NCBI GenBank assembly: GCA_948567375.1
Contig: OX419756.1
Span: 37,152,333 to 37,216,332, forward strand
Length of the DNA: 64,000 bases
Reading direction: 5' to 3'
From: Lunularia cruciata
Taxonomy: Eukaryota > Streptophyta > Marchantiopsida > Lunulariales > Lunulariaceae
Shown: positions 427 to 35,000 of the stretch, in pieces
Position numbering within the stretch: the first letter of the stretch is position 1
Layout of the letters: every line of letters starts with the position of its first letter
Notes under the pieces: model-generated
Database searches by the model: none
Seen by the model: only the letters and a program-made list of their open reading frames with translations
Told to the model about the DNA's origin: nothing
Program-made: the position numbers and the translations under genes

Positions 427-2508
427 TTGCGGTTGCAGTTGGTGGTTCGGGTTTGCTCTTGTGGTTACTTTGTCACGACGGAGTTCATTGGAGATTCTCA
501 AGGAGTTAGCCCTGTAGTACGCAGTAGGTTTACTTGGAGTGGTGCTCGGTATCAGCTTGTATCTCAGGTCACAGTGAGGGAGGAGATTGACTCTGAGTTG
601 GAGTTCGACACAGGAGCTGATTCAGTTGAGAGTGCACTTGGTGTGTCCGCACCGTTGTTGTAGGACATGGACAAGATTTATGGGGCCTCCAAAGGCCCTA
701 GGCATTACTCTGGTACAGTGGGTACCATTGAGTTGGATGACTTCATCAAGGAGTTTGATAGTTGGTGTGATCTGCAGTAGATGCGTAACCCAACTTTGTT
801 CACACCCTTCATAGCATGGAAGGGGTTGTTTCAGCATTTGGAGGGTCCACCAATGGATGACTACCATGAGTTTAGGAGAGCTCATTTGGAGGAGATCAAG
901 TTATGGAGATAGTATTTGTCTCCAAACTATGTCTCCATCACTTCAGGCTCGCTGGCCAGGAGTAGATCGGCTGTACCTACGAGTTCTAGCTTGAGTAGTG
1001 TGGGTGGAGCTAGTGGAGGTGCACTAGCTGGAGATAGTGCTACTACGAGTGGAGGCACCGCTGCAGGAGGTGGTGTGGTACTGGGGTTTAACCCCATGGT
1101 GGAGTTCTTCTTGTGTTTGAGGCAGAACTACCAGGGAGTGCGGACTGAAAAGCTGAGGAACTTGCAGGAGTTCTAGCGGAAGGCTGGAGAGAGCCTATGC
1201 GAGGCATACACTTGCATGAGGCGGCTGATCAGTTTCACTTAGGGAGTTACTGAGGCCCAGGCAGTCCAGTTTTGGTATGGGATACTGGACAGGGAGTTGC
1301 AACGTAGAGTTCGCGATGCTACGTTGTTGCAGGCTACTTCGCCCACTTTGGCAGTAGTCTTTGGTTTGGCTGAGCATATTGAGCTCAACGTGGTGGAGGA
1401 GAGAGTGGTGACATCTGGATTTGGTAGGGAGACCTCATCCACGATTGTGACTTCTTCTAGAGTGCAACAAAGTGCACCACACCTTGTTGGTTTTTGAGGA
1501 CAGGGTGGACAGCCTAGATCCTATGGAGCGAGTGGAGGGCCTAGTGGAGTTAGACCCTTACCCTCATTTTTGGGTCAACAGCAGCCAATGAGTGGTGGGG
1601 TTGCTTGTTGGACTTGTGGTGGACCTCACCATCAGAGAGAGTGTACTCAGGGCAGTGGACCTGATACCTCAGGTGCATCACAGCCAACACAAAGGCAATG
1701 TGAGCACTGCCACAGATTTGGTCACACTAGTGACCGGTGTTTTGACCTACACCTGGAGTTATGGAGTGGTAGGGCTGCTATGGTAGGTAGTAGAGGAGCT
1801 CCAGTTCATGGAGGACGAGGTGGTAGAGGTGGTGGTAGAGGATCTACACCTAGTAGGGGTGTAGTACCTACCCTTACTTCTGACATAGCTATGGCTACTC
1901 GGATTGAGCAATTGGAGTAGAGATTGGCTAGTATAGCTATTGCTCAAAGGAGATCAGATTCGGGTGCTGAGGCTTCTACCTCATATGCTGGTGATAGAGA
2001 TGCTTTGGACTTCATGTGCGGAGCAGCACAGGTGGGTGCATCTGCAGCAGTGACTAGGAGTGCAGTACGTGCTCCCAAGCCTAGAGGAGCATCAGTGGAG
2101 TTTGACCCACAAAGAGGAGAGGTTGGGAGATAGGTCAGACTTCCCCAGTCTTTCACGCTATCTGAGGCATTGCAAATGACATCCATGGTTCCTAGACGTC
2201 CTAGTGTAGGTGTGGTAGGTGGTGATGGAGTACATGATGGACTACCTGCTAGTCAACCACCTGCTACTACACAGACTGAGTCTAGCATGATGTTGGGGGC
2301 AGCTCAACTGATTATGCGACATCTTTTGTTTTCAGCCAGTGATATGTTTACATTGGGAGTTGACCCAGCCCCAGTGTTCCGGTTGGCTACCACGTTGTGT
2401 GAGAGTAGGGATGGTGCAATACCTACTACTAGAGCAGAGGTGGTTGGTAGTGGAGCTGACTTGGTTGAAGAGCATGGGATCCGTTCAACGACCAGTGGTT
2501 TATGGTAG
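427..2508 (+). pseudogene. Element A gag, stop-interrupted
   Basis: One reading frame runs from about 427 to 2508, broken by in-frame stops at 661, 778, 910, 1174 and further on. Several are TAG where A' has Gln codons. The capsid-like region (about 670-1450) contains LFQHLEG and the helical stretch around FNPMVEFF. Two zinc knuckles follow at 1606-1743: the first is irregular (C-x2-C-x3-H-x4-C), the second canonical (C-x2-C-x4-H-x4-C). After them comes a Gly-Arg-rich RGG-type tail (about 1790-1860). Gag packages the element RNA in cytoplasmic particles. The segment 1924-2508 is a low-complexity linker towards the protease. Confidence 0.75.
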
Positions 2509-2529
2509 GCAACAACGGCTAGACTGGAG

Positions 2530-3310
2530 GAGTTGCCAGCTAGACCGGCCTTTGAGAGAGTGCGGTTCACACATAGTGTTGTCCTATTGGATAACCAAAG
2601 GGGGGTTTGTTTTTGGTGGGACCTTCAGGGAAGGTCTATACACCACAAAGAGTCTTGTTAGACTGGGGTGCGTAGCCCCTTATGCTGGGGAAAGTTGTAG
2701 TTGTCGGTCTGGAGTTACGGAAGACCGATGTGGAGAGGTGTCTATTTCAGATCCAGACTATTCTAGGTGGTGGTTTGACACAGTACATCACACACGGGGA
2801 GCTTGTTGTCCAGGTTCAGCCTAGTCATCCGATTGATAGCTCGGTGGTGAGAGCTCAGGCTATTACGATGATAGTTGAGTCATATGATGTGCTAGTTGGG
2901 GAGCAGTGTTATACCCCATGGGTTTTAGCATTGACTATTAGGAGGAGACAACCTCTTATAGACTTGGTTGGCAGTCTGGTGAAGGACAGGTATGTTGCCT
3001 GCCAGTACACTTCAGTAGTGGCAGTCTTGGCTCACTACAGTTTGGGACTATGGCAACATCACTTTTAGCTTTCAGTGGTGCGGTTACTTGGCCTGGTGAC
3101 TTGTTGGAAGGGAACGCCCATGCAGCGGATACTCCAGTACCATAGGAGATCACTTGGCTTTGGAGTACGAGTGGGATTGTTCCATCCACTTTGGATGTTC
3201 CATTGTGGAGTTCAAAGGAGGCATTGCAATAACATGCAGATCAATTGGTGTAGTAGGCTTGGAGTGGAGCCTTTGTACCATCAGGAGATGAGTGTGAGGA
3301 TGAGCTTCCA
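2530..3310 (+). pseudogene. Element A retropepsin-like protease region
   Basis: The frame covering 2682-3068 contains upstream the motif VLLDWGA (Asp at 2661-2663), matching the D-[ST]-G-A active site of retroviral-type aspartic proteases with Trp in place of Ser or Thr, followed by a stop. Downstream, ESYDVLVGE is a typical second-half strand of plant gypsy proteases. The enzyme would cut the Gag-Pol polyprotein. Frames change at about 2590 and 3070. The same region is present, also broken, in A' at about 14500-15000 on the minus strand. The assignment rests on motif and position, since the domain is short and decayed. Confidence 0.6.
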
Positions 3311-3313
3311 GAG

Positions 3314-4335
3314 GTGATTGCTTTGACACCTCTGGATACCACCCTCATTGCTTGGCAGTATCTAGTAGAGGGGATATGCCTATTGGAGTTGTTTGGTGGG
3401 ATCAACACCGGACTAGCTGCGGTGTTACAGGCGGGTATACAAGTACAGAGGTACTTGTATGTAGAGAGAGATGAGACTACTAGGCAAGTCTCTTTACATC
3501 ATGTAGCACACTTGGCCTATCTGTATCCAGAGTTATTACCGATGTCAGCAGTTAGAGGTTACCAGAAGGCCCTACCAGGAGACATTTCCTTATTGAAGGC
3601 GCATGACCTAGAGGGACATGGGCCTATTCACTTGGTGATTTTTGGATGGCCATGTCAAGGACATACATGTGCTGGTAGAGGATTGGGTCTTTAGGATCCT
3701 CGTTTGGTGTGTTTTGGGAGATGTTACGAATACTACGACATCTCCAGGTTCATTAGTCCATTTCTCCAACTTACCTTTGGAAGAACATTCCTTTGATGGG
3801 TGATTCTTGCACTAGAGTGGTGGCGAGTACACATCAGGGTTATTCTTGGATGGGACCTATTGTATTGTTAGATGCAGCCAGAGTGAGATCACGGGCTCAT
3901 TGTCTTTGTCTTTGGTGGATGAACCTCTTACCCATAGAGGTTCTACATTGCGCTTATGATGGGATTCAACGACTTGACCACATCCTTGTTGATGATATCT
4001 TGGATGTTGGGTGTCAGACTCAAACAATGGTAGTGGCTGATAGGTCAGACTCAAACAGTGGTGAACCTAGTTGGACAACCTAGAGCCGCATTTCCCACAC
4101 TCATGAGTTTCCCAGGCTCTCATGCTTTTTGAGAGGGAGGACCTGGACTTGTTTGGGACTCACAGTTGGTGGAGCTCAATGCTGATGAGAGAGAGAGCGG
4201 GCAATGATTTTTCACACCAATATTACTGCTGTTCCAGCAGTGTTAGAGGCATCTAGGCGTTAGGTGTTAGGTCAGGCTATGGACCTGAATTGTTTGACCT
4301 GGATTGTGAGCCTTGGCTTAGCAGAGCAGTGTAGG
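3314..4335 (+). pseudogene. C5 cytosine DNA methyltransferase domain inside gypsy pol
   Basis: This is not a normal retrotransposon domain. In order I see motif I (LELFGG, 3383-3400), the cofactor pocket with YLYVERDE, motif IV with the catalytic Cys (GWPCQG, Cys at 3653-3655) followed by AG and GL-DPR, the helix WEMLRILRHL (from 3715), motif VI as KNI instead of ENV (3781), and motif VIII (PIVLLDA, then AHCLCLWW where the family has AHRxRxxW). The C-terminal part has LVWDSQLVELN and VLGQAMD like motifs IX-X. Motifs run I to X, not permuted as in plant DRM enzymes. The overall look is nearest DNMT3/DRM, but with PCQ rather than PCN. A stop (3692, CAG to TAG) and shifts near 3715 and 4200 inactivate this copy. 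It sits between protease and RT, so it was probably part of the Pol polyprotein. Confidence 0.83.
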
Positions 4336-4757
4336 ATGTGCTTGATAGGCATCACCACTCGGACACTTATGAGCCTGTGCCTGTCGAGATGATTCAGGCA
4401 CATGCTGGGGGTGATGGACCAAGTGGACATAGTATTCTTAGGACACATCCAATAGCTACTAGGGAGAGTGGTCTACTTGGAGTCCATCCACGTGAGCGTG
4501 GGCTACTTGGATTACACTCTTGGTCCACATGGGATGCAACTAGAGGACGTGTGGAGCTTGCAACCAGAGTGGAGGGAGTTTTTCACACAGAGGTTGGGAC
4601 CTCTAGTGGTCGAGAGTATGACACTATTGCTCCCAAGGGCCCAATGTAGCAGCCAGTCAATACGTCTTCCACTCCTACTACAGTTATAGAGGATACTTGG
4701 GAGCCAGATCTTGGACCCAAGCTTACTGGAGAGGAAAGACGAAGGGTTTGGAGGTTC
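4336..4757 (+). other. Element A linker between methyltransferase and RT
   Basis: Two frames are partly open here (4338-4649 and 4468-4689). The second reads as a plausible polyprotein linker (VYLESIHVSVGYL, PEWREFFTQRL) leading into the RT N-terminus. I recognise no domain. Confidence 0.35.
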
Positions 4758-5620
4758 TTGAGGAGTCACACGAGTTTTTTTGCCTTCAGTATGAAGGATT
4801 TGGGTGCTCTAAAGGGACCTGATATACGGATTGAGTTGACTAGTGACACACCAGTTTTCCAACGTCCTTATCGATATAGTGAGATGGAGAGGACATTGAT
4901 TCAAAGCCAGAGTAGTGACCTTTTTAAGGCTAGTTTGGTGGAGATTTCACATGGAGAGTATGCATCAACGATAGTGATGCCAGCCAAGAAGGATATGCAT
5001 GGCAACTATATAGATAGGCGGATGTGTGGAGATTATTGTCCTATCAACCGACAGACTAGGGCTGATCGGTATGCCATGCCTACACCGAAGGAGATTTTTG
5101 ATGCGATTGGGCATGCAAAGATCTTCAGTACTTTGGATCTTTGAGCGGGATATCATCAATTGCCGATCACGGAGGAGGATAAGTCCAAGACAACATTTTG
5201 GGCTATTGATCCTCACGGCAAGGATGTGTTATATCAATGGAGGTTCTTACCATTTGGGTTAAAGAACGCTCCTGCTGAGTTCCAGAGGGTCATGGATAGG
5301 ATCCTAGCTGGATTGGATTTTGCTTGGTGCTATATTGATGACATTTTGGTTTATAGCACTATTGTGGAGGAGCATGAGAGATAGTTGTTGGAGTTGTTTG
5401 AGAGCTTTAGATCTCATGGACTCAAATTACATCCTGGGAAGTGTAGGTTCTTCTACGAGCAAGTTGAGTATTTGGGTCACACTATCTACCCCGGAGGACT
5501 TGGTGTCCAGCAGACCAAGGTGGAGGCTATTGCATGTATTCCTTGGCCTACGGATGTGAGCAAGTACAAGCATTCCTTGGGTTGGCAAACTTCTATCGCC
5601 GCTTGTTAGAGGATTTAGTG
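4758..5620 (+). pseudogene. Element A reverse transcriptase
   Basis: One frame covers nearly the whole RT with two internal stops. The N-terminal DTPVFQRPYRYS is followed by the motif region ending FSTLDL, where a TGA replaces the family Arg. Then come GYHQLPITEEDK, LPFGLKNAPAEFQRVMD and the catalytic YIDD box (5331-5342). The thumb and connection follow in the same frame after a TAG that replaces Gln (about 5382). The frame is lost at about 5570-5640. It copies element RNA into cDNA in the virus-like particle. YIDD and LPFGLKNAP place it in the Ty3/gypsy RT family. Confidence 0.85.
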
Positions 5621-5639: not shown

Positions 5640-6141
5640 GAAGTTGACCAAGCTTACATAGGAGTGGTGTTGGGGAGATGAGCAGGAGAGAGCTTTTGTA
5701 GAGCTCAAGGAGAGATTGACATCTACTCCTATTTTGAGGAGACCGATCAAGGGACGACCATTTCAGGTTCACATTGATTGGAGTATGTTAGGGCTTGGAG
5801 CAGTGCTCACCCAACATGATGATGAGGAGAAGGAGTTTGTGGTGGCCTATGCTAGTTGCTCCAACAATTCAGCGGAGGCAAAGTATAGTTCATGTGAGGG
5901 AGAGTGCTTGGCAGCAATTTGGGTAGTAGCACATTTCCGATGTTACCTTTTTGGTAACCCCTTCACTCTCATCACTGATCATCAGCCGCTGAAGTGGTTG
6001 ATGGAGTCCAACAAGCTTTCAAGGAAGCTTGCACGATGGGCTCTGATTTTACAGGAGTATGATTTCACAGTTGTTCACAGACCTGGAGTGGTGAACCGTG
6101 ATGCAGATAGGTTGAGTAGAAACCCATGTCCCAACCAGTAG
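5640..6141 (+). pseudogene. Element A RNase H
   Basis: This frame continues from the RT connection. It holds the gypsy RNase H signatures VHIDWSMLGLGAVL (the first catalytic Asp is in HID), the Glu of the CEGECLAAIW helix, and LITDHQPLKWL (catalytic Asp). It ends with VNRDADRLSR, which normally closes the domain. RNase H removes the RNA template during reverse transcription. The catalytic residues look intact, but the RT upstream lies in a different frame. Confidence 0.82.
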
Positions 6142-7600
6142 GATCAGACCGGAGCACGTTGGCATGGTGAGACAGATGAGGAGATGGTGCCAGGTTGGCA
6201 TGCATTGGCCTTTCTATGTATGTTTGCAAAGGCTTTGGTGGTATCTCTCTCAGCGCATACAGGAGGAGTTATTGAGGTCACAAATCCAAAGAGTGAAGAT
6301 ATTGGTACAATTTAGCAAGACATTCATGATGATGTCTTAGTGATGGACTATCTTTGCACTGGTGTTGTGGGTGGCACAGTTGGGGCCAAGGAGAGAGACC
6401 GTGTTCTTCAGCAAGCCAGATGGCTCAGATTGGAAGGTAGACACCTTTTGCGTGTATGGGAGGATGGTAGAATGCGAGTAGTACCACTTCCATCATAGAG
6501 ACCACAGTTGGTCCGTCATGCTCATGAGGAGCTAAGACATTTTGGAGTGAAGCGTACATATAGCTTACTCTAGAGTCATTATTGGTGGCACGGTATGCAG
6601 ACCAAAGTACAGTAGTTTGTTGGTAGATGTGTGGTTTGTGACCAAGGTAGAGCATCATTCAATGCTCTTATGCCATAGTTACACCCATTACCTATCATGG
6701 GATTGGGTTACTGTTGGAGTTTGGACTTTGCTGGACCTTTACCGCTGACTGTGAGACATCATTGGTACATTTTGGTGATGGTGGAGCACTTCTCCAAGTG
6801 GATTGAGTTGGTGGCACTTCCTGACAAGTCTAGTGAAGGGACAACTTACTCCTTTTTGGATCGAGTTCTTAGTCATTTTGGTGCATCAGTTGAGGTTTTG
6901 ACTGATCAAGGTACAGAGTTCTTGGGAGAGTTTGAGGTCTTGTGTGACAAGGCTTTGATTGATCATCATACTACATCTCAAGATCACCCTAAGGCAGATG
7001 GTCTAGCAGAGAGAGTGGTTCAGACGGTGAAGAGAGGATTGCAAAAGTATGGTTTGTAGAGAGGCCACTAAGGAGATTGGATCTCCAATTACCTTGGTTG
7101 GCCATGGGCTATCAGTTCAGCCGGCAAGCCTCCTTAGCATCCTTCTCTCCATACTTTCTACTCTATGGACGAGATCCAGATTTACCTGCAGCCATTCATC
7201 GAGATGCTATTGTAGTTTTGGACTTGGATGACCGTGATGTATGGATGAGCGCATGTTCTCAACGGGCACAGAACTTTTGGAGAGTGATGCCGATGGCCTT
7301 TGAGAACTTGGCAATTGCTCAACATAGAGATACTTTATGCTATGCTACCATTCGAGGAGGAGGTTATAGAACCTTGATCTGTTGATTTCATCTAGGCGAC
7401 TATGTATATCTACAGCAGACAACACCGATGACACTTGATGTTTCTACAGGCCGCACTATCTTGAGAGTGCGTGAGGTTTTTCCATCTGGAGTCCTTGTGT
7501 TAGAAGGACGTGATGGTGTTGTTTGGAAGGATCATGTGCGCAATTGTGCGCCATGCCACCTTCCAAACATTGATGGTACTATGGACCCAACTTAGCAGTT
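6142..7600 (+). pseudogene. Element A integrase
   Basis: The reading frame of RNase H continues. The N-terminal zinc-binding region (6480-6660) has HAHEELRHFG and CVVC, giving HHCC, but with four TAG codons where Gln is expected. The core has LDFAGP (first Asp), LTDQGTEF (second Asp) and DGLAERVVQ (Glu), the DDE triad. A frameshift at about 7060 moves the C-terminal part (FSPYFLLYGRDP, then VREVFPSGVLVL) to another frame. Integrase inserts the cDNA. Its C-terminal tail leads directly into the PHD finger, where many plant gypsy elements have a chromodomain. Confidence 0.82.
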
Positions 7601-7759
7601 GTACGTGCAGGCTTGAGGTGTATGTTATGTGGCTCTTTTGGTGGAGCTGCTACTATGTTAGTGTGTGATAGCTGTTCGAGAGGATGGCATATGGCATGTA
7701 TGACTCCTCCCCTCACGGTGGTTCCTCAGGGATAGTGGTTATGTCCTAGATGTGCTTGA
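7601..7759 (+). pseudogene. PHD finger at the C-terminus of element A pol
   Basis: After a one-base frame change, the frame from 7610 gives the C4HC3 pattern of a PHD finger. The Cys pairs are at 7619 and 7628 and at 7664 and 7673, the motif RGWH gives His at 7688-7690, and further Cys codons lie at 7697, 7742 and 7751 with W-LCPRC at the end. The spacing and the PPLTVVP stretch are typical PHD features. PHD fingers commonly read histone H3 tails, often H3K4 state. Here it could target integration or the methyltransferase to a chromatin type, but that is inference. One in-frame TAG (7733) replaces the Gln usual before the conserved Trp. The frame closes at TGA 7757. Confidence 0.8.
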
Positions 7760-7928
7760 CCTATAGCTAGTTCATTCTTTATATGGTATAGATTGCAGAC
7801 ATGCGACTAACGATGGGGCTCTATAGCACCCGGCCTCTTGATCTTTGCCCATTAGAGGGTATACCATATACTTAGAGTAGATGGCTATCTGGAGTTAGAG
7901 GAACCTAACCGCCAGCTAGGGGGGCAAT
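7760..7928 (+). other. Element A 3' untranslated stretch with polypurine tract
   Basis: No coding signal is seen. The run AGGGGGGC at 7918-7925, just before the first TG (7929), is the likely primer for plus-strand synthesis and helps set the 3' LTR start. Confidence 0.5.
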
Positions 7929-8431
7929 TGTGGCACTTTAGAGTCTATGTATGACTTATGTGTGAGTTGTGCTTCTATAGTGTATGATGTTGACAACGAT
8001 GTATGTTGTGTAGCGATGTATATACGCACAACAACTGTCATGCCATTTGTAGTGCCGCATCTAGATGGTTGGACACAAAGTTCCAATGATAGTAGTTAGA
8101 GTTATTTTAGCAATTTCTCAAAGACTACTTTCCGACGGTCAGATTTTGTGTTTGGGGTACTGACTTCACGATGGGGCCCATCGTCACTTTGCACCGTTGA
8201 GTGTGCCATCAATGGGACCATTAGGGTTTCAGAGCTAGCTTGAGTCCAGGGGGTATAGTTTCAAAGTGAGCTCCAGAGAGCTCACTTCTCTGATGTTTAG
8301 CCTTTGAGTTCTTGGCTATGGTGGACAGAGGCCGGCAAGCATCACCTGGATTCTCTCTACTTGAGTGGGTGTGGCTTGACTGTAATTAGTGCCCAATTGT
8401 TGGCAGTCTATAGAGTGACAGATCAAGTACT
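7929..8431 (+). repeat. Element A 3' LTR, truncated
   Basis: It starts with TGTGGCAC after the polypurine tract. From about 8040 it aligns with the outer part of the A' LTR (minus strand, 36371 downwards), including ATTTTGTGTTTGGGGTAC and GAGTGGGTGTGGCTTGA. It stops abruptly at 8431 where element E begins. The A' LTR shows the whole LTR would be roughly 1.1 kb. Confidence 0.7.
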
Positions 8432-9406: not shown

Positions 9407-11837
9407 AATGTCCTGTGTGGAAGGACCTTGGCCTGATTGGAGAGCATATCTGCATAGTAGGGAGACATGGAACACTAGATGGATCTTCATGTGTGGTGGT
9501 AGCTCAAGGTGATAGGCCACAGCGCCGATGCAACAAAGAATTGAGAAAGGCCCAATAAAACAAGGTCTGAGCTTACGAGATCCAACTAATGTGAGGTTGG
9601 TTGTCGATAGCCACACTTGATCTCCAACATTGAACTCCATGTACCTACGGTGTGCATCAGCATACTGCTTTTGTTGATTTTGCACAATCTGTAACCTATG
9701 CTTGATGCTCTCCACACCTTGTTGGATTCTAGAAACAAATGTGTTGACTGCATCAACCTTGGTAGTCACTGGATGGGATCTTCATCAAGCTAGAAGGTGT
9801 GAAGGGATGCTCACCATACATGAGGAAGAACGGAGTGACCTGGGTGGAGGCATTCACTGAATTGTTGTAAGCAAATTCTACCAACGGTAGTAGGGTGTCC
9901 CACCTCTCTTGCTCTTCTAAGGTGAAGCCGCGTAACATGTCTTCAATCGTGCGATTAGCCCACTTTGTTTGGCCATCTATTTGTGGGTGGTAAGCTATAG
10001 ACATGGCCAACTTGGTTTTGAAGAAACCAAAGAGTGTTTGCCAAAACAAACAAATGAATTGGGTGCCTCTATTGGTGATGAGTACTCTAGACAAGCCATG
10101 GTGAGCAAAGACTGCATCTAAGTATAGTTGAGCTAGTTGTGGAGCGGTCACCTCCTTGGTGGTAGGGCATACATGAATCATTTTGCTAAGCCGGTCCACA
10201 AAGACCATAATGGAGTCAAACCTTGCGGTGGTCTTGGGTATTTTGCAGACGAGATCCATACTCACTTGTTCCCAACGTTGGGTAGGAGTGGAGAGAGGTT
10301 GAAGGAGCCCTGCAAGAGCTTGATTAGAAGCTTTGTTTTGTTGACAAAGTAGGCAGCTACGCACATAGTCCATCACGTCATTGCTCATCTTGGGCCAATA
10401 GTAATGGCGCTTGACTGCATCCAAGGTCTTGTCTACTCCGACATGAGCTGCAATGGCCAAATCATGACATTCCACTAGAATGGTGGTGCGTAAGTCTGGG
10501 ACATTTGGGATCCATAATCTACCATCCCAAAAGGTGAGTCCTTGGGTGCTGGTGACACCTTTGGACGATTGCGGTTCTACAATTTGTGGATCAGTTTTTG
10601 TAGTAGCTAGAATCTCTTGCCAAAATTCAGGGTTAATCTTAACCTCTGCCACCAAGTTGTTGGCCATTGGCATACGGGTGAATGCATCTACCAATTGTTT
10701 CTTACCTTCCACGTAGGTGATTGTCATGTTGAAGCGTTGTTGCCACTTTGCCCACCGAATTTGGCGACGAGAGAGATCCTTCTGCGTCTCGAGGTAGACT
10801 AGAGGTTTGTGGTCTGTCTCTACTATAAATGCCTTCTCGCCCAGGTAGTGCTTCCAATGCTTGGTTGCTAGAACGATGGCCAACTCTTCTCGTTTTGTGG
10901 TGTGGTAGTTGCGCTTTGCCGGTAACAACTTTTGAGAGAAATATGCAATTGGATGCCATCCGTCATGCCACTCTTGTTGTAGGACTGCTCCTATTGCTAC
11001 ACCTGATGCATCTGTAGCCAACTTGATTGGATGTTTTGGGTCATACCACTTCAAGATTGGTGCATGTAGCAAGGCAGCCTTCAATTCTTGAAAGGCCAAC
11101 TCTTGTGCGGTTCTCCGTGTCCACTTCTTCCCCTTGCCAAGTAGTGCCGTTAAAGGTTGTGCAACCTTGGAGAAGTCCTTGACAAATCTATGATAGAATC
11201 CCGTCAACCCCAAGAAGCTCTTAAGTTGAGTCTGATCTTCTAGGGCACTCCATTTTTGAATGACCTTTATTTTATCTGTCAATACTTGAATGCCCTCTGC
11301 ACTTACTCTATGCCCTAAGTAGTCTACTTTAGACTTGCCAAACTCACACTTTGAGATTTTGGCGTACAACTGATTCTGTCTTAAAATCTGGAGGACCTCT
11401 CGTAGATGTTGTTTGTGTTTTGTCATCGTGCTACTATATACTAAGATATCATCCAAGAAGACAATAACAAACTTATCCAAGTATGGACGATATATGTCAT
11501 TCATTAGGCTCATGAAAGTGGCAGGCGCATTGGTGAGGCCAAAAGGCATCACAAGATACTCAAAGTGGCCATACCTGGTTCGAAAGGCAGTTTTGTACAC
11601 ATCCTCCTTTGCAATTCGGATTTGATTTTAACCGCTCCGCAAGTCCAGTTTGGTGTAGTATCTTGCTCCATGGAGTTGATCAAACAGGTCATCCATGCGA
11701 GGTAAGGGGTATTTGTTCTTCACTGTTTGCTGATTGAGACCCTGATAGTCAATGCACATGCGCATTGTACCATCCTTCTTCTTCACAAACAAGACAGGGA
11801 CCCCATATGGTGATACGCTAGGTTGGATGAACCCTTT
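9404..11837 (-). pseudogene. Element E RT, RNase H and integrase
   Basis: A long frame (9753-11600) preceded by RT N-terminus in the same frame back to 11837, with a TAG (11838) and a TAA (about 11627) inside. The RT box is FLDD. RNase H has [13 protein letters not shown] and [10 protein letters not shown]. The integrase has HHCC with CLLCQQ intact, the first Asp (SMDLV), but TNRGTQF in place of TDRGTQF and QTKWAN in place of QTERAN. Two of the three DDE residues are lost. A frameshift at about 9760 separates the integrase C-terminus (9404-9769). The copy cannot integrate on its own. Confidence 0.88.
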
Positions 11838-12560
11838 CTATAGCATCTCCTCAATTTGAGTCTTACACTCCTCCAACTCATGAGGTGATAGGCAATATGG
11901 GGCCTTACAAGGAGGTGTCTTCCCCGAGAGTGTCTCTATTTTGTGATCTACTCGCCTTTTAGGTGGTAATCCTGAGGGTAGATCATCGGGAAAGACATCT
12001 TGAAACTCATCCACTACATCCTTCAATTTCTCAAGAATTTGTCTAGCAAGTTGTGCACTCTGGACTTCTCTTATTCGACCCATAGAACATCTATTGGTCT
12101 TATAGACAATTGTCGTCCTTATGACATATAGAGGCAATTTCTGCCTGTGTGATTTTTCTTTAACCCCAATGATTGACCATTGGTGGGTTCTCACTACTTT
12201 CTTCCTCCAATCCACCATTGGGTTGTACTGCTCCATCCATGGCATACCTAAAATTGCATCATAACGGGCTAACTGTATCACTCGCCACTCAATTGCTTCC
12301 TGATATTCTCCTACAGAGAGGGTTACCCGTTTAGGTAATGATTCAATCCTCTCTGTTTGCCCATTTGGTAACTCTACTTCTTCACTTCCATCTCTCTCTA
12401 GATCCATTCCCAATCTTATTGCAATAGAGCGAGACAAGAAATTCTCTGTTGCTCTCGGATCTATTAATACTCTCACTTGATTACCTTCTAGGATTCCATT
12501 CACGACAATCAATTGTGAGGTTGCCTTTCAGGATCTTTGCGCATTATTCTTCTTCCTTCC
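11838..12560 (-). pseudogene. Element E protease and RT N-terminus
   Basis: The frame starts around VVNGILEGNQV. Its active site reads LIDPRATENF where D has IDPGATENF, so the Gly of the D-x-G motif has become Arg and the protease should be inactive. [12 protein letters not shown] is the typical late protease strand. RT begins at about 11950 ([12 protein letters not shown]). It ends at a TAG replacing Gln. Confidence 0.82.
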
Positions 12561-12607
12561 CTTGCTTCCCTGCTTCCTTATTGAGCCAATAAGGCCGCGA
12601 GGTACAT

Positions 12608-13695
12608 TTACTGGCAATCTTCATTTTCCGAAGTGGTTTCCACCTCCGCCTCTTCAATATGCCTCTCCATGTTGTTCAAAGATTGCCTGTATGAAGGCCG
12701 AGGGCCTCTAGGGAAACGAGTGCAACAACTGGTAGATATGTGCATAATACGGCCACAATTATAACAACGGCGTTGTTCTCCTTGAGTCCCTTCTCCTTGT
12801 GGGACTCCATCTCTTTGTTCTTCTACCCGTCCCCACTCTCCTTGAAGCGGCCGTGCTCCTTGATCTCGGAATCGAAGGTTGCCCAATTCCATTGGTACTA
12901 GTCCACCCATGTGTGGCATTTCTGCCCGATAATGTTGAGGTGGAACTACTCCTTCACCTCCACCTAATGCTCCTGCTATTCTCTGCGCACAAGCAATGGC
13001 TTCAAATACCGTGCGAGGGTTTTGCACCATGACTTCTTGGAAAATCTGCTCTTTCAACCCTTGTTTGAAATTGTCGAGAGCCTCTGCTAGACTCATGTCG
13101 GTAATTGCAACTTGTAGATCCAAAAATGCCTCCACATACTCTTGTACGCTATTTTTCTGTCTCAATCCCCATAGTCGGGTTTGAGCCATCTGCACAGAAT
13201 CCACCGATTGGAAATTCTTCAGCAGTCCTTCTTGCATTGCTATCCATGTGACCTCCCTTCTCTTTGCCAGCATGGATCGTTCCCAAGCATCATACCATGT
13301 GAGCGCTCTATCGGTCAAGTACCCACATGAAAACACGCATGCAGCATGCTCTGTGATCTCTGTTGAGAACAATCGGAAATATTGATTCATTCTCAAGATC
13401 CAATTTTCCACTACTCCCATCGTACGCTGCCCCTTGTAAGGCTTGATGTTGCAGGTCTTCTTCATCCGGAGTAGCAATGGACTTCATCGTTGATAGGGTT
13501 TGTAGGCACGGGTGCCTCTTCAAGTACTTCAGTCGTAGGTACTGGGTTTTGAGACGACTCTTCTCCTTGCATGGGTTGATTGTTCCTGAGGATTTGCACT
13601 TGACTTTGTAATGTCTCCATGGTCATCTTAATCTCTCAAAATTCATTCAGCATCCCTTGCATTCCTTGCACCAGCTCTTGCAACTGCGGATCCAT
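12608..13695 (-). pseudogene. Element E gag
   Basis: The ATG at 13695 matches the D gag start (MDPQLQEL). A CGA-to-TGA stop occurs early, and a one-base deletion near 13478 breaks the frame. From 13477 a 289-codon frame covers the capsid (TWYDAWERSML, ALDNFKQGLKEQI) and a complete zinc knuckle CYNCGRIMHISTSC. It ends at 12608. This copy keeps the knuckle His that D has lost. Confidence 0.85.
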
Positions 13696-14094
13696 GGTTC
13701 CTGCAACACCCAATTGCTAATGTCTACTTCAATACAGAGTCAATATAATCACTCTGGAAGGCATACAAAGTATCGGAACTACCATTGGGACCTCAGAAGC
13801 TATCACTCGTTGATAATACTCCTCACCAAAATTCCTAACAACAAAATCTCTAAACATCACTTTTGGCCTCACTACATAGCGGATTTCTACTTGAGTGTTG
13901 AAAGGGAGAGGATTTGGGACATTCATATCCATATTATCATAATAGAATGTAGATTGTCAAATCCCACTCTCTATCATATATCACCATAGGTAGAATCACC
14001 GGGTTTGGTGAGTTCATCACTCTGTCCATGAATTCCGTACCAAAGTGATAAACTAGCGATACCCTCCTCTGCTCACACTGGATGTACATAACCT
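13696..14094 (-). other. Element E leader with short pre-gag ORFs
   Basis: The leader holds the same two short frames as D (see 23545-23954). The second is the 67-codon frame 13729-13932 beginning MDMNVPNPLPFN. The first lies upstream up to the junction at 14091-14096. Confidence 0.6.
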
Positions 14095-14230
14095 TTGTAC
14101 TCATATACTTGCCTATAATTGCAACTAGTCCAATACTAATCCCACCAAATCAGTCCAATAAACATACTCCCTCTATTGGATACTGCCAAGCAATGAGTGT
14201 AGTATCTAGAGGTGTCAAGGTAATTGTGTC
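14095..14230 (-). pseudogene. A' methyltransferase motif I fragment
   Basis: The minus strand reads EGVCLLD-stop-FGGISIGLVA, aligning with EGICLLELFGG of element A. The fragment ends at the E junction (14091-14096). It shows that the methyltransferase was present in a second family member. Confidence 0.7.
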
Positions 14231-15235
14231 AATGTGAGGATGACTCTAGAGGCTCATCCTTACACTAGTCACCCAATGGTACAAAGGCTCCACTCCAAGC
14301 CTATTGACCAACTGATCTTCATGTTGCTACAATGCCTCCTTTGAACTCACAATGGAACATCCAAGGTGGATGGAAAAATCCCACTCATACTCCAAATCTG
14401 AGTGATCTCCTTTGGTATTGAAGTATCCTCTGCATGGGTGTTCCGTTCTAATAAGTCACCACGCCAAGTAACAAAACCACCTAAAGCTAAAATTAATGTT
14501 TATAGTCCCAAACTATAGTGAGCCAAGACTACCACTATTAAAGTGTATAAGCATGTGACATACCCGTCCCTCACCTAACTGCCACCCTAGTCTATAAGAG
14601 GATGTCTCCTACCAATAGTTAATATTGGAACCCATGGGATATAACATTGCTCTCCCACTAACACATCATATGATTCAACCATTGTCGCAATGGCTTGAGC
14701 TCTCACCATAGAGCTATCAGTCAGATGACTGGGCAGAATCTAAACAACAAGTTCTCCACATGTGATGTACTATGTAGAACCACCACCTAGAAATGTTTGG
14801 ATTTGAAATAGACACCTCTCCACATTGGTCTTCCATAACTCCAGATTGACAACTACAACCTTCTCCAACATAAAGAGTTGTGCATGAGAGTCTAGTAAGA
14901 CCATCTATAGTGTATAGACCTTCCTTGAAGGTCCCACCAAACAAAAAATTCCCCTTTGGTTATCCAATAAGACAACTCCAAGTGTAAACCACACTCTCTC
15001 AAAGGCTGGTCTAGCTAGTAACTCCTCCAATCTAGCCATTGTTGCCTGCCATAAACCACTGGTCGTTGAGTGGATTCCATGCTCCTCGACCAAGTCAGCT
15101 CCACTATCAACAACCTCTACTCTAGTAGTAGGGCTCACATCATCCCTACTCTCACAAAGCATAGCATCCAACCGGAACATTGAGGCTGGATCAACTCCCA
15201 ATGTAAACATGTCATTGGTTGAGAATAATCAAAAG
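14231..15235 (-). pseudogene. A' protease and linker
   Basis: The minus-strand frames 14905-15210 (MFTLGVDPASMFRL) and 14717-14944 (FGGTFKEGLYTIDGL) align with A at 2340-2830. Frames are broken and no intact active site is readable. Confidence 0.6.
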
Positions 15236-16014
15236 TGCATGATCAGCTAAGCTGCCTCTAACATCATGCTAGATTTAGTTTGTGTAATAGTAGGTGGTTG
15301 ACTAGTAGGTAGTCCATCATGCACCTCATCACTAACTACCACACTTGCACTAGGACATCTAGGAACCATGGATGTTGTCTATAGTGCCTCAAAGAGTGCA
15401 AAAGATTGTGGAATTTTGCCTATCTACCACCCTCTCCTCTCTCTAGATCCAGCTCCATTGATTGTCCTCTACACTCTAGAGCATGTACTACACTCCTAGT
15501 CACAATGATAGATCCATCCACCTTTGTTGCTCTGCACAAGAAATCCAAGGTGTCTCTATCACCAACATATGAGGTGAAAGCCTTAGCACCCAAATCTGAT
15601 CTCCTTTGAGCTATGGCCATGCTAGCCAATCTTTGCTCCAACTGCTCAATGCAAGTAACCATGGCTATATCAAAAGTAAGGGTAGGTATTGCACCCCTAC
15701 TAGGTGTGGATCCTCTTCCACCACCTTTACCACCTTGTTCTTTATGACTGAGAGCTCCTCTACTACCTGCAATAGCAGCCCTTCCACTCCATAACTTTGG
15801 GTGTAGGTCAAAGCATCAATCATTGGTGTGACTAAATCCGTGGCAATGCTCACAATGTCTCTATGCTAGTTGTGATGCATCAAAGGTATCAAGTCTACTA
15901 CTTGAGTGCACCTCTCTTGTGAAGACGTCCACCATAAGTCCAACAAGCAACCCTACCACTCACTAGTTGCTACTTACCCAAAAATGAAGGTAAGGATCTA
16001 GCTACACTAGGCCC
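15236..16014 (-). pseudogene. A' gag C-terminal part with zinc-knuckle region
   Basis: The minus-strand frames around 15420-15662 (EQLEQRLASMAIAQRRSD) and 15665-15853 match A gag at 1700-2130. Where A has TAG, this copy has Gln (EQLEQRL), supporting CAG-to-TAG decay in A. The element is interrupted at 16014 by B. Confidence 0.7.
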
Positions 16015-25097: not shown

Positions 25098-28000
25098 GTA
25101 CCTCGTGGCCTTACTGGCTCAATAAGGAAGCAGAGAAGCGAGGGAAGGAAGAAGAATAATGCGCAAAGATCCCAAAAGGCAACCTCACAATTGATTGTCG
25201 TGAATGGAATCCTAGAAGGTAATCAAGTGAGAGTATAAATAGATCCGGGAGCAACAGAGAATTTCTTATCTTGCTTTGTTGCAATAAGCTTGGGAATGGA
25301 TCTAGAGAGAGATGGAAGTGAAGAAGTAGAGTTACCAAATGGGCAAACAGAGAGGATTGAATCATTACCTAGACGGGTAACCCTCTCTGTAGGAGAGTAT
25401 CAGGAAGTAATTGAGTGGCGAGTGATACAGTTAGCCCGTTATGATGCAATTTTAGGCATGCCATGGATGGAGCAGTACAACCCAATGGTGGATTGGAGGA
25501 AGAAAGTAGTGAGAACCCACCAATGGTCAATCATTGGGGTTAAAGAAAAATCACACAGGCAGAAACTGCCTCTATATGTCGTAGGGACGACAACTGTCTG
25601 TAAAACCAATAGATGTTTTCTGGGTCTAATAAGAGAAGTCCAGAGTGCACAACTTGCTGGACAAATTCCTGAGAAATTGAAGGATGTGGTGGATGAGTTT
25701 CAAGATGTCTTTCCCGATGATCTACCCTCAGGATTACCACCTAAAAGGCGAGTAGATCACAAAATAGAGACACTCCCGGGGAAGACACCTCCTTGTAAGG
25801 CCCTATATCGCCTATCACCTCATGAGTTGGAGGAGTGTAAGACTCAAATTGAGGAGATGCTACAGAAAGGGTTCATCCAACCTAGCGTATCACCATATGG
25901 GGCCCTTGTCTTGTTTGTGAAGAAGGATGGTACAATGCGCATGTGCATTGACTATCGGGGTCTCAATCAGCAAACAGTGAAGAACAAATACCCCTTACCT
26001 CGCATGGATGACCTGTTTGATCAACTCCATGGAGCGAGGTACTTCACCAAACTGGACTTGCGGAGCGGTTACAATCAAATCCGAATTGCAGAGGAGGATG
26101 TGTACAATACTGCCTTTTGAACCAGGTATGGCCACTTTGAGTATCTTGTGATGCCTTTTGGCCTCACCAATACGCCTGCCACTTTCATGAGCCTAATGAA
26201 TGACATATTTTGTCCTTACTTGGATAAGTCTGTTATTGTCTTCTTGGATGATATCTTAGTATATAGTAGCACGATGACAGAACACAAACAACATCTACAA
26301 GAGGTCCTCCAGATTCTAAGACAGAATCAATTGTACGCCAAAATCTCAAAGTGTGAGTTTGGCAAGTCTGAAGTAGACTACTTAGGGCATAGAGTAAGTG
26401 CAGAGGGCATTCAAGTATTGACAGATAAAATAGAGGTCATTCAAAAATGGAGCGCCCCAAAAGATCAGACTCAACTTAAGAGCTTCTTGGGGTTGATGGG
26501 ATTCTATCGTAGATTTGTCAAGGACTTCTCTAAGGTTACACAGCCTTTAACGGCACTACTTGGCAAGGGGAAGAAGGGGACATGGGGAACTGCACAAAAG
26601 TTGGCCTTTCAAGAATTGAAGGCTGCCTTACTACATGCACCAATCTTGAAGTGGTATGACCCAAAACGTCCAATCAAGTTGGCTACGGATGCATCAGGCG
26701 TAGCAATAGGAGCAGTCCTACAACAAGAGTGGCATGACGGATGGCATCCAATTGCATATTTCTCTCGAAAGTTGTTACCGACAGAGCGCAACTACCATAC
26801 CACAGAACGAGAAGAGCTGGCCATCGTTCTAGCAACCAAGCATTGGAAGCACTACCTGGGCGAGAAGGCATTTGTAGTAGAGATAGACCACAAACCTTTA
26901 GTCTACCTCGAGACGAAGAAGGATCTATCTCGTCGCCAAATTCGGTGGGCAGAGTGGCAACAACGCTTCAACATGACAATCACCTATGTGGAAGGTAAGA
27001 AGCAACTTGCAGATGCATTCACCCGCATGCCAATGGCCAACAACTTGGCGGTAGAGGTTAAGATTAACCTTGAATTCTGGCAAGAGATTCTAGCTACTAC
27101 AAAAACTGATCCACAGATTGTAGAAGCGCAATTGTCCAAAGGTGTCACCAGCACCCAAGGACTCACCTTTTGGGAGGGCCGATTGTGGATCCCAAATGTC
27201 CCAGAATTACACACCACCATTCTAGCAGAATATCATGATTTGGCCATTGCAGCTCATGTCGGAGTGGACAAGACCTTGGAGGCAATCAAGCGCCATTACT
27301 ATTGGCCCAAGATGAGCAACGACGTGATGGACTATGTGCGTAGCTGCCTACTTTATCAACAGAACAAAGCTTCTAATCAAGCTCCTGCAGGGCTCCTTCA
27401 ACCTCTTCCCACTCCTACCCAACGTTGGGAACAAGTGAGTATCGATCTCGTCTGTGAATTACCCAAGACCACCTCAGGGTTTGACTCCATTGTGGTCTTT
27501 GTGGACCGGCTCAGAAAAATGATTCATGTACGTCCTACCACCAAGGAGGTGACCGCTCCACAACTAGCTCAACTATACTTAGATGCAGTCTTTGCTCACC
27601 GTGGCTTGTCTAGAGTACTCATCACCGATAGAGGCACCCAATTCACCAGTTTGTTTTGGCAAACACTCTTTGGTTTCTTCAAAACCAAGTTGGCCATGTC
27701 TACAGCTTACCATCCACAAACAGATGGCCAAACAGAGCGGGCTAATCGCACGATTGAAGATATGTTACGCGACTTCACCTTAGAAGAGCAAGAGAGGTGG
27801 GACACCATACTACCGTTGGTGGAATTTGCTTACAACAATTCAGTGAATGCCTCCACCCAGGTCACTCCGTTCTTCCTCATGTATGGTGAGCATCCCTTCA
27901 CACCTTCTAGCTTGATGAAGATCCGTCCAGTGACTACCAAGGTTGATGCAGTCAACACATTTGTTTCTAGAATCCAACAAGGTGTGGAGAGCGCCAAGCA

Positions 28001-28187
28001 TAGGTTACAGATTGCGCAAAATCAACAAAAGCAGTATGCTGATGCACACCGTAGGCACATGGAGTTCAATGTTGGGGATCAAGTATGGCTATCGACAACC
28101 AACCTCACATTAGTTGGATCTCGTAAGCTCAGACCTCGTTTTATTGGGCCTTTCTTGATTCTTCGTCGCTGTGGCCTATCACCTTGA
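25098..28187 (+). pseudogene. Element D pol: protease, RT, RNase H, integrase
   Basis: The frame is -1 relative to gag. Protease active site IDPGATENF (about 25242), preceded by a TAA at 25236 where E has Leu, and ILGMPWMEQ follows. RT contains [27 protein letters not shown] and [13 protein letters not shown] at 26118 replaces Arg. RNase H has [13 protein letters not shown] and [10 protein letters not shown]. The integrase keeps the DDE residues (IDLV, TDRGTQF, QTERAN), but the zinc-binding CxxC reads CLLYQQ, a lost Cys. The frame shifts at about 28165 by an 8-base deletion relative to E. Confidence 0.92.
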
Positions 28188-30638: not shown

Positions 30639-31560
30639 TATGGCCCAAATGTTACCAAGGAGGAGAAGGTGAGATTTGAGGAGATTTTCCGCAAGTTCAT
30701 CCATGTGTTTGCTTTTAGTTACAAGGATTTGAAGGAAGTCACCTTGGAGGAGCACAAGATAGAGGTGGAGTCACATGCAAGACCAATCTGCCAAAAGCAA
30801 TGTTGCATTAGCCCACCAATATCTTTGGTTGTGAAGGAGGAGATTGATTAGCTCAAGGAGGCTAGATTTATCTTTGAGGTGGAGAATTCAGAATGGGTGT
30901 CTCCAATTGTCATTGTGAAGAAAAAAAATGGCAAGCTTTGGGTATGTGTGGATTACAAGAAGCTTAATGCTGTTACCAAGAAGGACTACTACCCATTGCC
31001 ATTCATTGATGAGATCTTGGAGGAGGTTGCAAGTCATGAGAGGTACAGTTTTTGAGATGGTTATAGTGGATACAACCAAATCAAGATTGCACCAGAGCAT
31101 CAACAACTCACCACATTCACCACACCTTGGGGAAATTACGCTTTCAAGGTCATGCCTTTTGGGCTTTGCAATGCTCCAGCCACATTCCAATGGTTCATGA
31201 ACAAGGTATTTGAACCTTTCATTGGGAAATTTGTAAGACTTCATTGATGACTTTTGTGTCTATGGGAGCAAGGAAGAGCATTTTGAGCACCTATCAAAGT
31301 CTTGCAACGCTTGGATGAAGCAAATGCATCACTCAACCTAGAGAAGTGAATTTTTGGATGTGAAGAAGGTCTACTTTTGGGGCACATCATCTCCAAGGAT
31401 GGAATAGCTGTTGATCCTAAGAAGGTGCGGAAAATCTCAGACCTTCCATTCCCTTCAAGCTTGACAAAGTTACGCCAATTCTTGGGGATGGTTGGGTACT
31501 ATAGGAGGTTCATCTTCTCATTTTCCAACAAGGCTTATGCATTGAACATCTACATGAAGA
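30639..31560 (+). pseudogene. Element B reverse transcriptase
   Basis: Resumes after C1 in the frame of 30627-30851. The N-terminal KEEKVRFEEIFRKFIHVFAF leads to HARPICQKQ, a TAG (30849), CVDYKKLNAVTKKDYYPLPF, DGYSGYNQIKIAP with a TGA just before it, and MPFGLCNAPATFQ. The catalytic FIDD lies at about 31242 after a frameshift, with a further shift before 31377. Signatures fit the Tat/Athila side of gypsy. Confidence 0.82.
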
Positions 31561-32060
31561 AGGGTGTAGATTACATGGTGATTTTGGAAGACAAGGAGGC
31601 TCTCAAAGCTTTTGAGGAGCTCAAGCAATCCCTTGTTGTAGCTCCAATTCTTGCTAAACCTGATTGGAGTAAGCCTTTCATCCTCTACACTGATACTTCT
31701 AATGTAGCTATAGGATGCACTCTTAGTCAATTAGACCAAGATGGGCATGATCATCCAATAGCTTATGCTAGTAGGCAGATGGTTTTAGTAGAGAAGAACT
31801 ACTCTGTCACGGAGAGAGAAGGGTTTGGCAGTGATCTTTGGTCTCAAGAAGTTTAGACACTACTTGATTGGAGGGAAAGCCACCATTGTCACAAATCACA
31901 AGGCTTTAAAGTACATCTTCAACAAGCCTAATGTTGAAGGGAGACTAGCAAGGTGGATGATACTCTTGTCTAAGTATGACTACACCATTGTGGATAGGCC
32001 AAGAAAGAAATATGCAAATGCTGATTTGTTATCTAGAGCCTATGATCATGATGGAGATGA
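31561..32060 (+). pseudogene. Element B RNase H
   Basis: Two frames joined by a shift near 31830. LYTDTSNVAIGCTLSQ (catalytic Asp), VTEREGF (Glu), then VTNHKALKYIF, where the expected Asp of TDH is Asn, so activity is probably lost. ANADLLSRA closes the domain. Confidence 0.8.
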
Positions 32061-33396
32061 GCCTATGGATGATTCCTTCTCGGATGAGGAGCTCATGACA
32101 ATCTCAGTCACTCAAGAGGTTCCAATGGAGTACAAGGAGATTGTGGATTTTGTGACAAGAGGTAACTATCCAGAAGGGATGCATGCTAGGGAGAGGAAGG
32201 CCCTTGCAGCAAGATCTAGACCTTACACAATGGTGGAGGATATTCTTTTTCATCAAGGAGCAGATGGTCTACTTCAAAGAGCAGTGGGTAAGGAAGAGTC
32301 TATCCTACTCATAAAGAAGTTTCATGAAGGTTTAGTATATGGAGGACACTTTGTAGGAAAGGTGACTGCTTTCAAGATTCTAGATGCAGGTTACCATTGG
32401 AGAGGGATTTTCAAGGATTGTCTTGATTATTGTAAAACTTGTCATGTTTGTCAAGCTTTTGCTAGAAAGTCTACATCCACTCCACCACTTAGATCAATTC
32501 CATTGCTAGGACCTTTTGAGAAGTGGTGAATTGATTTTGTAGGTCCTCTTAATAGAACCCCAAGGAACAATCAACACATTGTGGTAGTTACTGATTACCT
32601 TACCAAGTGGGTTGAGGCTAGACCATTGAGGGACAAGAATGAAGATGAAGTGGGTAGATTTCTTTATGAACGCATTATCACTAGGTTTGGATGCCCTTTG
32701 GAGTTGGTTTTTGATAGAGGAGGAGAGTTTACAAGAAGCATTACTACAGCCATGCTACGACATTTCTCTATCACACATAGAGTAACTACATCCTATAAGC
32801 CAAATTCCAATGGCTTGGCAGAGAGAACCAATCAGACCTTGTGCATGATGTTGGCCAAAGATGCAGAAATGGAGGGAGCTAAACATCATTGGGACAAGAG
32901 GATTCATGCAGTTTTGTGGGAGTATAGGACAACCATGAAGACTTCCACCGGATATTCTCCATTTCAATTGGTGTATGGTATTGAGTCTACCTTATCTATT
33001 CACTTTGATCTTCCTACCTTCCAAAGGATTCATAGGAGATTGAAGAAAGCACAAGGAGGTGATGCAAAGAAGTCAAGGAAGGATCAACTCATGGAGTTGG
33101 AAGAGGCAAAAGTAGTTGCTATGGTTTGAATGGAGCAAGCCCAAAGGAAACAAAAGGAGAGCTATGACAAGAGGCAAGACAAGAAGAAGGTGGAGCCTTT
33201 CAAAGAAGGTGATTGGGTAATGTTGTTTGATTCCATTTGATTCAAGAGAGTGCAAAACAAGTTTTTGCCTAAGTACTTTGGACCTTTCATAGTGGAGAAG
33301 GTGTGGGGCAATTACACCTATGATCTCAAGGAGTTGGGAGGAAGACACTTTGATAGGATTAACCATGATAAGTTGAAGATGTACAATAGAAGGTAG
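32061..33396 (+). pseudogene. Element B integrase
   Basis: A nearly continuous frame broken by TGA at 32527 and 33127 and another near 33238. The zinc-binding part has CKTCHVCQAF. The core has IDFVGP, VFDRGGEF and NGLAERTNQ, a complete DDE triad. The C-terminus continues with EGDWVMLFDSI and LPKYFGPFIVEKV and ends at a TAG near 33396, without a chromodomain. Confidence 0.85.
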
Positions 33397-34142: not shown

Positions 34143-35000
34143 CCACTCGGTCTATTAGACCTAGGTTGTCCACCCTATCCTCAAAAACAAATATGGCATT
34201 GTGTACTCTATTGCACTCTTGAAGAAGTTATTGCTGTGCTCCCAAGCAAATCTTAATGTCACCACTCTCTCTTCCACCATGTTGAGCTCAATACGCTTAG
34301 CCAAACCAAAGACCATTGCCAAAGTAGGCAAAATAGCATATCTCCTCAACTTGTCAATCCATACTCCATGGTGGTTCTGCCTCAAGCATTGGAAGAACTC
34401 CACCATGGGATTAAACCCTGGTACTACACCACCCCCTATAGTAGTACCTCCACTTGTAGTAGCACCATCTCCAAGAGATCCACCAACACTACCAAAGCTA
34501 GAACTTGTGAGTATTGTTGATCTATCCCTAGAAACTAAACCTAAAGTAATGGAGACATAGTTCGGAGACCAATATTGTTGCCATAACTCAATCTCTTCCA
34601 AGTGAGCTCTCCTAAATTCATGGTAGTGGACCCTCCAAATGTTGAAATAACCTCTTCCATGCCATGAAGAGTGTGAACAAAGTTGAGTTTTTCATTTGCT
34701 GCAAATCACACCAACTATCAAACTCTTGGATAAAGTCATCCAACTCAATGGTACCTACCCTACTAGAGTAATGCTTGGGGCCTTTGGGGACCCTATAAAT
34801 CTTGTCCATGTCTCACAACAACTATGTTGACATACCAAGTGCACTCTCAATTGAATCAACTCTTGTGTCAAACTCCAACTTAGATTCAATCTCCTCCCTC
34901 ATTGGGACTTGAAATACAAGATAAGATCAAGTGCCACTCTAAGTAAACCCACTATGTATTGCAATGCTATCTCTTCCAAAATCCCTAAGGAACTCCATTG
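34143..35000 (-). pseudogene. A' gag N-terminal part
   Basis: The minus-strand frames 34618-34809 (MDKIYRVPKGPKHYSS, VGTIELDDFIQEFDSW, LFQHLEG) and 34161-34601 (LWQQYWSPNYVSIT) align with A at 666-1480. Gln codons here correspond to TAG in A. Confidence 0.75.

Follow-up and report, generated by a model that had tools for sequence, protein, structure and literature searches.

A DNMT3-type cytosine methyltransferase domain in a Ty3/gypsy retrotransposon family of Lunularia cruciata

The stretch of Lunularia cruciata DNA analysed here (64 kb, hereafter the window) contains near its start a decayed Ty3/gypsy retrotransposon, element A, whose features are listed in Table 1. Its enzymes follow the order protease, reverse transcriptase (RT), RNase H and integrase, with a DDE integrase and an RT and RNase H of the gypsy type (PF17917, PF17919, PF00665 and profiles). 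By profile, the RT pieces begin in the open reading frame (ORF) at 4650; the zinc-binding start and the core of the integrase lie within 6499-7056 and its C-terminal part continues to 7592. The ordered Pfam and profile matches bear out the initial annotation of this DNA, which had described a Ty3/gypsy element with a C5-methyltransferase (MT) between protease and RT.

Table 1. Features of element A and of two related relics in the window
Feature	Position in window	Strand	Evidence and remarks
gag (start of ORF1), decayed	667-2607	+	tblastn, Marchantia P0030, 51% identity
Aspartic protease (ORF1)	2676-3065	+	Homologue profile, E 4e-17
DNMT3-type MT domain (ORF1)	about 3371-4308	+	Profile; PF00145 in sister copies; decayed (stops, frameshifts, pieces in several frames)
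Catalytic Cys codon in GWPCQG	3653-3655	+	Sequence and translation
UAG followed by CAG CCA (CAR-YYA context), in-frame ORF1/ORF2 boundary	4647-4655	+	Alignment of copies
Reverse transcriptase (ORF2)	4698-5582	+	tblastn and profile
RNase H	5662-6138	+	PF17917, E 2.9e-35; profile, E 1.6e-53
Integrase	6499-7592	+	PF00665, E 5.4e-12; profile; tblastn to Marchantia P0073
PHD finger, C-terminal to integrase, one internal stop	7583-7753	+	PF00628; identity to P0073
Terminal repeat B1	7928-8033	+	96% identical to a sister copy's repeat B
Terminal repeat A2, truncated	8036-8431	+	Repeat comparison with copies
A', older relic: gag-protease and first ~60 residues of MT	13985-15854	-	tblastn
Third family relic, with part of gag (34227-34809) and a repeat A (35986-36366)	34227-36366	-	tblastn, repeats

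The MT was searched for in the 2,011 stop-to-stop ORFs of the window, at an E threshold of 0.01, with a 316-position profile that combines homologues from databases with one sister copy from this genome. Six fragments of element A match it in order and span profile positions 1-315. Positions 1-107 match window 3257-3691 (the best match, E 3.6e-43), 132-227 match 3757-4080 (E 9.4e-22), 227-253 match 4034-4129, 255-278 match 4133-4204, 276-299 match 4189-4260 and 301-315 match 4264-4389; profile positions 108-131 and some single positions have no coverage by these fragments. No further match at E 0.01 or better was found in the 64-kb window, and the same 2,011 ORFs reversed as a control gave none. 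The initial annotation had made its claim depend on such a search across 3370-4335, which does find the MT, with motifs in order near the places described. The limits first given, 3314-4335, enclose the domain and are slightly wider than it. The Cys of the GWPCQG loop is encoded where it had been placed, at 3653, and the two motifs described as degraded indeed are: element A reads KNI for ENV and AHCLC for AHRxR, at positions where a sister copy has ENV and AHRLR. Pfam (E<1) and NCBIfam (E<10) returned nothing for the two longest MT fragments of the window because this copy is too broken by stops and shifts, and sister copies and the family profile were used instead. Four sister pieces overlapping the MT were compared with PF00145 (cut-off 22 bits): two pass (25.8 and 26.2 bits), one scores 17 bits and one gives nothing. 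A stop-free sister domain reaches 29 bits.

The CpG observed/expected ratio of the relic A' is 0.13. The initial annotation had placed the start of the same MT domain in A' as well. A tblastn search with the homologue P0001, whose MT begins at residue 361, runs into A' as far as residue 418, near 13985, and so agrees with this assignment, which was not recovered with the MT profile (no MT piece in A'). Upstream of the window and just ahead of element A, L029 contains the B-A-B end of a further copy in inverted orientation (minus strand, about 717-1379 of the locus; repeats described below). No MT was found in three other gypsy elements of the window, at 9753-13483 (minus strand), 25239-28184 and 30642-33126 (both plus strand). 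The RTs of the first two are 92% alike and branch outside the MT-bearing gypsies in the RT tree.

The genome searched comprises 566 Mb, of which eight contigs of 60-85 Mb make up all but about 8 Mb. First-look DNA searches, in each of which the best 40 places were scored (at least 90% identity), gave rough, unconfirmed counts of 5,456 candidate places for the 5′ part of the MT, 6,071 for its 3′ part and 6,452 for RT; the MT/RT ratio of these counts (0.85-0.94) agrees with a constant presence of the MT. A genome search with PF00145 yielded 2,161 candidates; the 123 scored were all above the cut-off, host genes included, and 30 of them fall in open frames that reach 600 amino acids or more, 7 in frames of 1,000 or more. 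Scored MT places are found on all eight large contigs. The association was then approached from the RT: 20 copies were hand-chosen down the list of 39 other scored RT places and the 1.1 kb upstream of each was fetched. All 20 carry the MT; 939 or more of its 945 bases are covered in 18 copies, and only a part in the other two (764 and 343 bases); in four, both partial ones included, the covered MT part has no stop. The MT belongs to the family, as the initial annotation had held against a one-off fusion, and other copies that lack the domain, which would have spoken for such an event, did not appear among these 20. A far more divergent MT relic (38% identity to Marchantia) adjoins a family copy in L013 (C11:57062147-57072146, about 1870-2600 of the locus), and perhaps represents a second MT gypsy family in the same genome.

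The nearest solved structures of the MT are DNMT3A/B. The stop-free sister domain (L024:4646-5590) matches DNMT3A in the PDB with an E value of 1.2e-11, compared with 0.053 for the best DRM and 0.22 for the best HhaI. A 20-row MT profile gives 1.1e-24 for DNMT3A, 6.7e-12 for DRM, 5.7e-8 for HaeIII and 1e-5 or weaker for DNMT2-type chains, and finds no DNMT1 chain at 0.01 or better. The MT is thus closer to DNMT3 than to DRM, DNMT1, DNMT2 or bacterial enzymes. Its motifs I, IV, VI, VIII, IX and X, with the catalytic Cys, are unrearranged, whereas the host DRM is rearranged. Among 121 full-length homologous domains the catalytic Cys is kept in 114, the Glu and Asn of ENV in 119 and 115, and the Arg residues of motif VIII in 113 and 117. 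The MT was very probably catalytically active in the source elements. In a 45-row tree the 41 MTs from retroelements group in a single clade (98/93), a statement that holds against the only four non-retroelement rows included, all on long branches: human DNMT3A, the host DNMT3, the host DRM and HhaI. This clade stands beside DNMT3A, host DNMT3 and host DRM and is not nested inside DNMT3. The two host genes come from the same genome and were named from their motifs: L030 is a DNMT3-like gene of two or more exons, and L031 a DRM with rearranged motifs. For Marchantia, five methyltransferases are listed in the available part of a published account, DNMT3 not among them (PMC5784723).

Protein searches gave 28, 70 and 83 matches, the latter two scored among 8,000 candidates. 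Named homologues come from Marchantia polymorpha, Calypogeia fissa, Sphagnum troendelagicum, S. fallax and Closterium, with a weak one in Haematococcus lacustris (8.2e-5); the nearest named relatives of the element are those of liverworts. No vascular plant name occurs among the matches listed, most of which are proteins without a name. One family member, P0022, is filed under a bacterial metagenome-assembled genome (Candidatus Obscuribacterales), a label that perhaps reflects eukaryotic contamination. Two domain orders were distinguished among 150 proteins. In type I (75 proteins) the MT adjoins the protease or precedes RT; in type II (55 proteins) it lies between RNase H and integrase or adjoins one of them; the order could not be told for 20. 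Type II forms one clade in the MT trees (98; 99/97) and in the RT tree (97), in which the only gypsy rows from outside the MT families are four from the Lunularia genome. The order RT-RNase H-MT-integrase-PHD is seen in P0063, P0094, P0099, P0116 and others, mostly unnamed proteins. The bryophyte MTs and P0007 form one clade (9 rows, one of them from Sphagnum; 100/100 with 4 rows in a second tree). Between the sister copy L023/L024 and Marchantia, identity is 73% for the MT, 66% for RT, 65% for RNase H and linker, 75% for the integrase end with the PHD finger and 57% for the whole gag-protease-MT stretch. The MT is therefore held as well as the core enzymes. All this bears on whether the arrangement is a recent chance fusion, or an assembly artefact, in one lineage. 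Such an origin would fit the rarity of the arrangement in print, and nothing beyond that speaks for it; it is ruled out by the MT in 20/20 RT-picked copies, by the spread of scored places over eight contigs and by the homologues of other species in which the MT likewise lies between protease and RT, so that we give it next to no probability.

The MT shares the frame of gag and protease upstream of the UAG, ORF1 being gag-protease-MT. The UAG context could be aligned in 10 of 12 copies, element A included, with TAG in 10/10, CAR in 9/10 and YYA in 10/10; this conservation is weak evidence alone because the copies are about 93% alike. CAR-YYA is given as a readthrough signal of plant viruses in the part of PMC2194720 available. 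The ends of homologues are a stronger hint of readthrough than the context: of 38 type I homologues that lack RT, many of them partial or predicted, 30 appear to terminate 64-150 residues after the MT. Three full-length homologues (P0088, P0089, P0091) have protease, MT, RT and integrase in one frame. The first polyprotein of the Lunularia family is gag-protease-DNMT3-type MT, and a second product, RT-RNase H-integrase-PHD, would probably be made by readthrough of the UAG in its CAR-YYA context. The PHD finger of element A scores 33.6 bits with PF00628 (cut-off 24) over its stop-free part (7583-7732) and is 70% identical to Marchantia P0073 by tblastn. A genome search with PF00628 gave 5,913 candidates; the 150 scored were all above the cut-off, with host PHD genes mixed in. 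Eighteen of the 57 scored MT places on contigs C1 and C2 have a PHD finger 3.4-4.1 kb downstream on the same strand, where about 0.01 per site is expected by chance; a further two pairs, within 8 kb, have their members on opposite strands. A PHD finger is also present in homologues of both domain orders.

The ends of the element were analysed in copies from L009-L028, of which seven have a complete 3′ end within the sequence analysed. None of these seven carries two identical full-length long terminal repeats (LTRs). Their direct repeats are split in the form A...B-A-B: in 7/7 copies the 5′ end carries A1 (about 450 bp) alone, while the 3′ end consists of A2 and then a shared B2 (about 107 bp). 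B1 stands directly before A2 and aligned to B2 in the three copies tested (3/3); all seven look alike over the 25 bases that precede A2. A reading as plain LTRs was dropped, as the sequence past the 3′ repeat is common to the copies and repeated inside them. Element A also has B1, preceded by a G-run. The A1 of this element falls a little beyond the window (C2, about 37151087-37151534) and is 92% identical to its A2 over 394 bases; no B2 was found after A2 in this element. The seven copies have TG...CA ends and are flanked by 4-bp target duplications, of which one contains a mismatch; in L013, L025 and L027 the duplication was set by visual comparison with the shared end, in place of the longest match reported by the script. 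A DDE integrase core and 4-bp duplications are thus found where DIRS elements are defined by a tyrosine recombinase and no target duplication, and DIRS-like repeats are shown to occur together with gypsy-type integration. The A...B-A-B form would result from opening, at the B/A junction, a two-repeat circle whose repeat is B-A.

The A repeats of the seven copies differ by K2P distances of 0.014-0.092, and each of 12 copies compared has stops in gag. Among singleton changes (up to 12 copies), 555 of 853 are C>T or G>A, with rates per site of 0.028 at CG, 0.027 at CHG and 0.011 at CHH, against 0.0035 for A/T transitions. This C>T-dominated decay, strongest at CG and CHG, is the trace of heavy cytosine methylation and can explain the degraded AHRxR of element A. 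The C>T rates of 67 family pairs and of 285 pairs of other repeats, pairs which draw on the same DNA and are not independent, are 0.164 vs 0.175 at CG, 0.130 vs 0.113 at CHG and 0.033 vs 0.036 at CHH. No footprint of the element's own enzyme is seen against this control, and host methylation suffices since other repeats have the same rates. The comparison likewise gives no signal for the suggestion of the initial annotation that the element could hide from, or use, host silencing. It is likely that host silencing methylates the copies after insertion and erodes them. Within the genome no selection on the MT was seen: codon positions change about equally in singletons and in shared changes (9-12 copies per domain, Fisher p 0.35-1; for the MT also with 30 copies), with a lean of shared gag changes to third positions (84/211). 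The sampled copies therefore decay about neutrally, and support for function comes only from between species (catalytic residues, identity to Marchantia). The missing footprint and selection would suit an MT that is a structural or nucleic-acid-binding passenger, or that methylates RNA or the tRNA primer, with no DNA methylation. The MT of KnitGypsy, an element of the charophyte Klebsormidium nitens, likewise produced no methylation in yeast, a result that its authors call inconclusive in the part of their paper available (PMC5890265). We consider such a role unlikely, as the Cys, ENV and AHRxR residues are kept in 113-119 of 121 domains and the MT resembles DNMT3 far more than it does DNMT2, the tRNA enzyme.

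Taken as a whole, the observations are in our view best explained, with somewhat better than even confidence, by a high-copy gypsy family with a gag-protease-MT polyprotein, in which the MT may methylate the element's own new DNA and the PHD finger may steer insertion. Being made together with gag, the MT would act inside the particle or on the pre-integration complex. There it may methylate the new DNA of the element de novo, so that this DNA enters the nucleus already marked, a step to which we give not quite an even chance. Whether the PHD finger at the end of the integrase recognizes a histone mark and directs where the element inserts appears about evenly balanced. The MT could instead act, together with the PHD finger, on chromatin at or around the insertion site, making the element self-limiting or tolerated by its host. 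A DNMT3-type writer and a PHD reader do occur in one element, the copies have decayed in a way that suggests strong methylation by the host, and slowed retrotransposition was raised by de Mendoza and colleagues in the available part of their paper (PMC5890265). The MT, however, is on the gag-protease side of the UAG and the PHD finger on the integrase side, so that only readthrough would join the two in a single chain; the great abundance of the family does not look like self-limitation; and no excess of methylation-type decay over other repeats is seen. We regard action on chromatin as rather improbable, and retain self-methylation of the new DNA as the preferred reading.

On a broader scale, these elements may form a gypsy clade extending throughout the green lineage and tracing back to a single ancient DNMT3 capture, older than the land plants. 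The MT would have moved from between protease and RT to between RNase H and integrase, a writer and a PHD reader would be combined, and a circle-like intermediate would take the place of standard LTR ends. This scenario is tentative and falls somewhat short of an even probability. A DNMT3 borne by a gypsy element, known from one charophyte alga, is now found also in land plants. Marchantia and Sphagnum can be grown in the laboratory, and their related elements make the question of why a retrotransposon would carry the silencing enzyme of its host directly testable.

The closest known system is KnitGypsy-Dnmt3 of Klebsormidium nitens: as far as the available text of PMC5890265 shows, both elements have a Gypsy composition and an unrearranged Dnmt3 in a polyprotein. 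The A-coding-B-A-B layout is given there for DIRS elements, and the same is said of KnitGypsy; its likeness to the repeats of the Lunularia family is by the paper's description, not by sequence. The hosts differ (a land plant vs a charophyte alga), and the copy number of the Lunularia family is probably far higher; bursts of Ty3/gypsy elements are given as a source of Lunularia cruciata genome growth in the accessible part of PMC9985172. The MT lies in the gag-protease frame before the UAG in Lunularia, whereas it is assigned to the Pol ORF in KnitGypsy-Dnmt3 in the text at hand (PMC5890265). TG...CA ends and 4-bp target duplications were measured in the Lunularia copies, which also have a PHD finger after the integrase; the term "PHD" does not occur in the main text on KnitGypsy (PMC5890265). 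The SymbioDIRS-Dnmt3 elements of Symbiodinium, as described in the same available text, are alike in carrying Dnmt3 in a retrotransposon polyprotein, in the A-coding-B-A-B layout and in occurring in two domain orders. They belong to another retrotransposon class, with a tyrosine recombinase instead of a DDE integrase, and their Dnmt3 is reported to perform de novo CG methylation in yeast (PMC5890265). A later paper, citing de Mendoza, mentions streptophyte and dinoflagellate "LTR Copia and DIRS" elements with DNMT3 in the portion available (PMC12344493), and the main text of a plant survey contains neither "PHD" nor "methyltransferase" (PMC6317226). The remark in the initial annotation that no plant gypsy lineage with such a layout was described has thus to be narrowed: KnitGypsy-Dnmt3 comes close, while no description of a land-plant member was found in the open-access literature (one library, mostly titles and abstracts). 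Plant chromoviruses resemble the Lunularia family in having a chromatin-reading domain C-terminal to a gypsy integrase, which is a chromodomain in the former and a PHD finger in the latter. Relative to the literature found, the new features of the Lunularia family are the PHD finger, the position of the MT in ORF1 and the gypsy-type integration marks.
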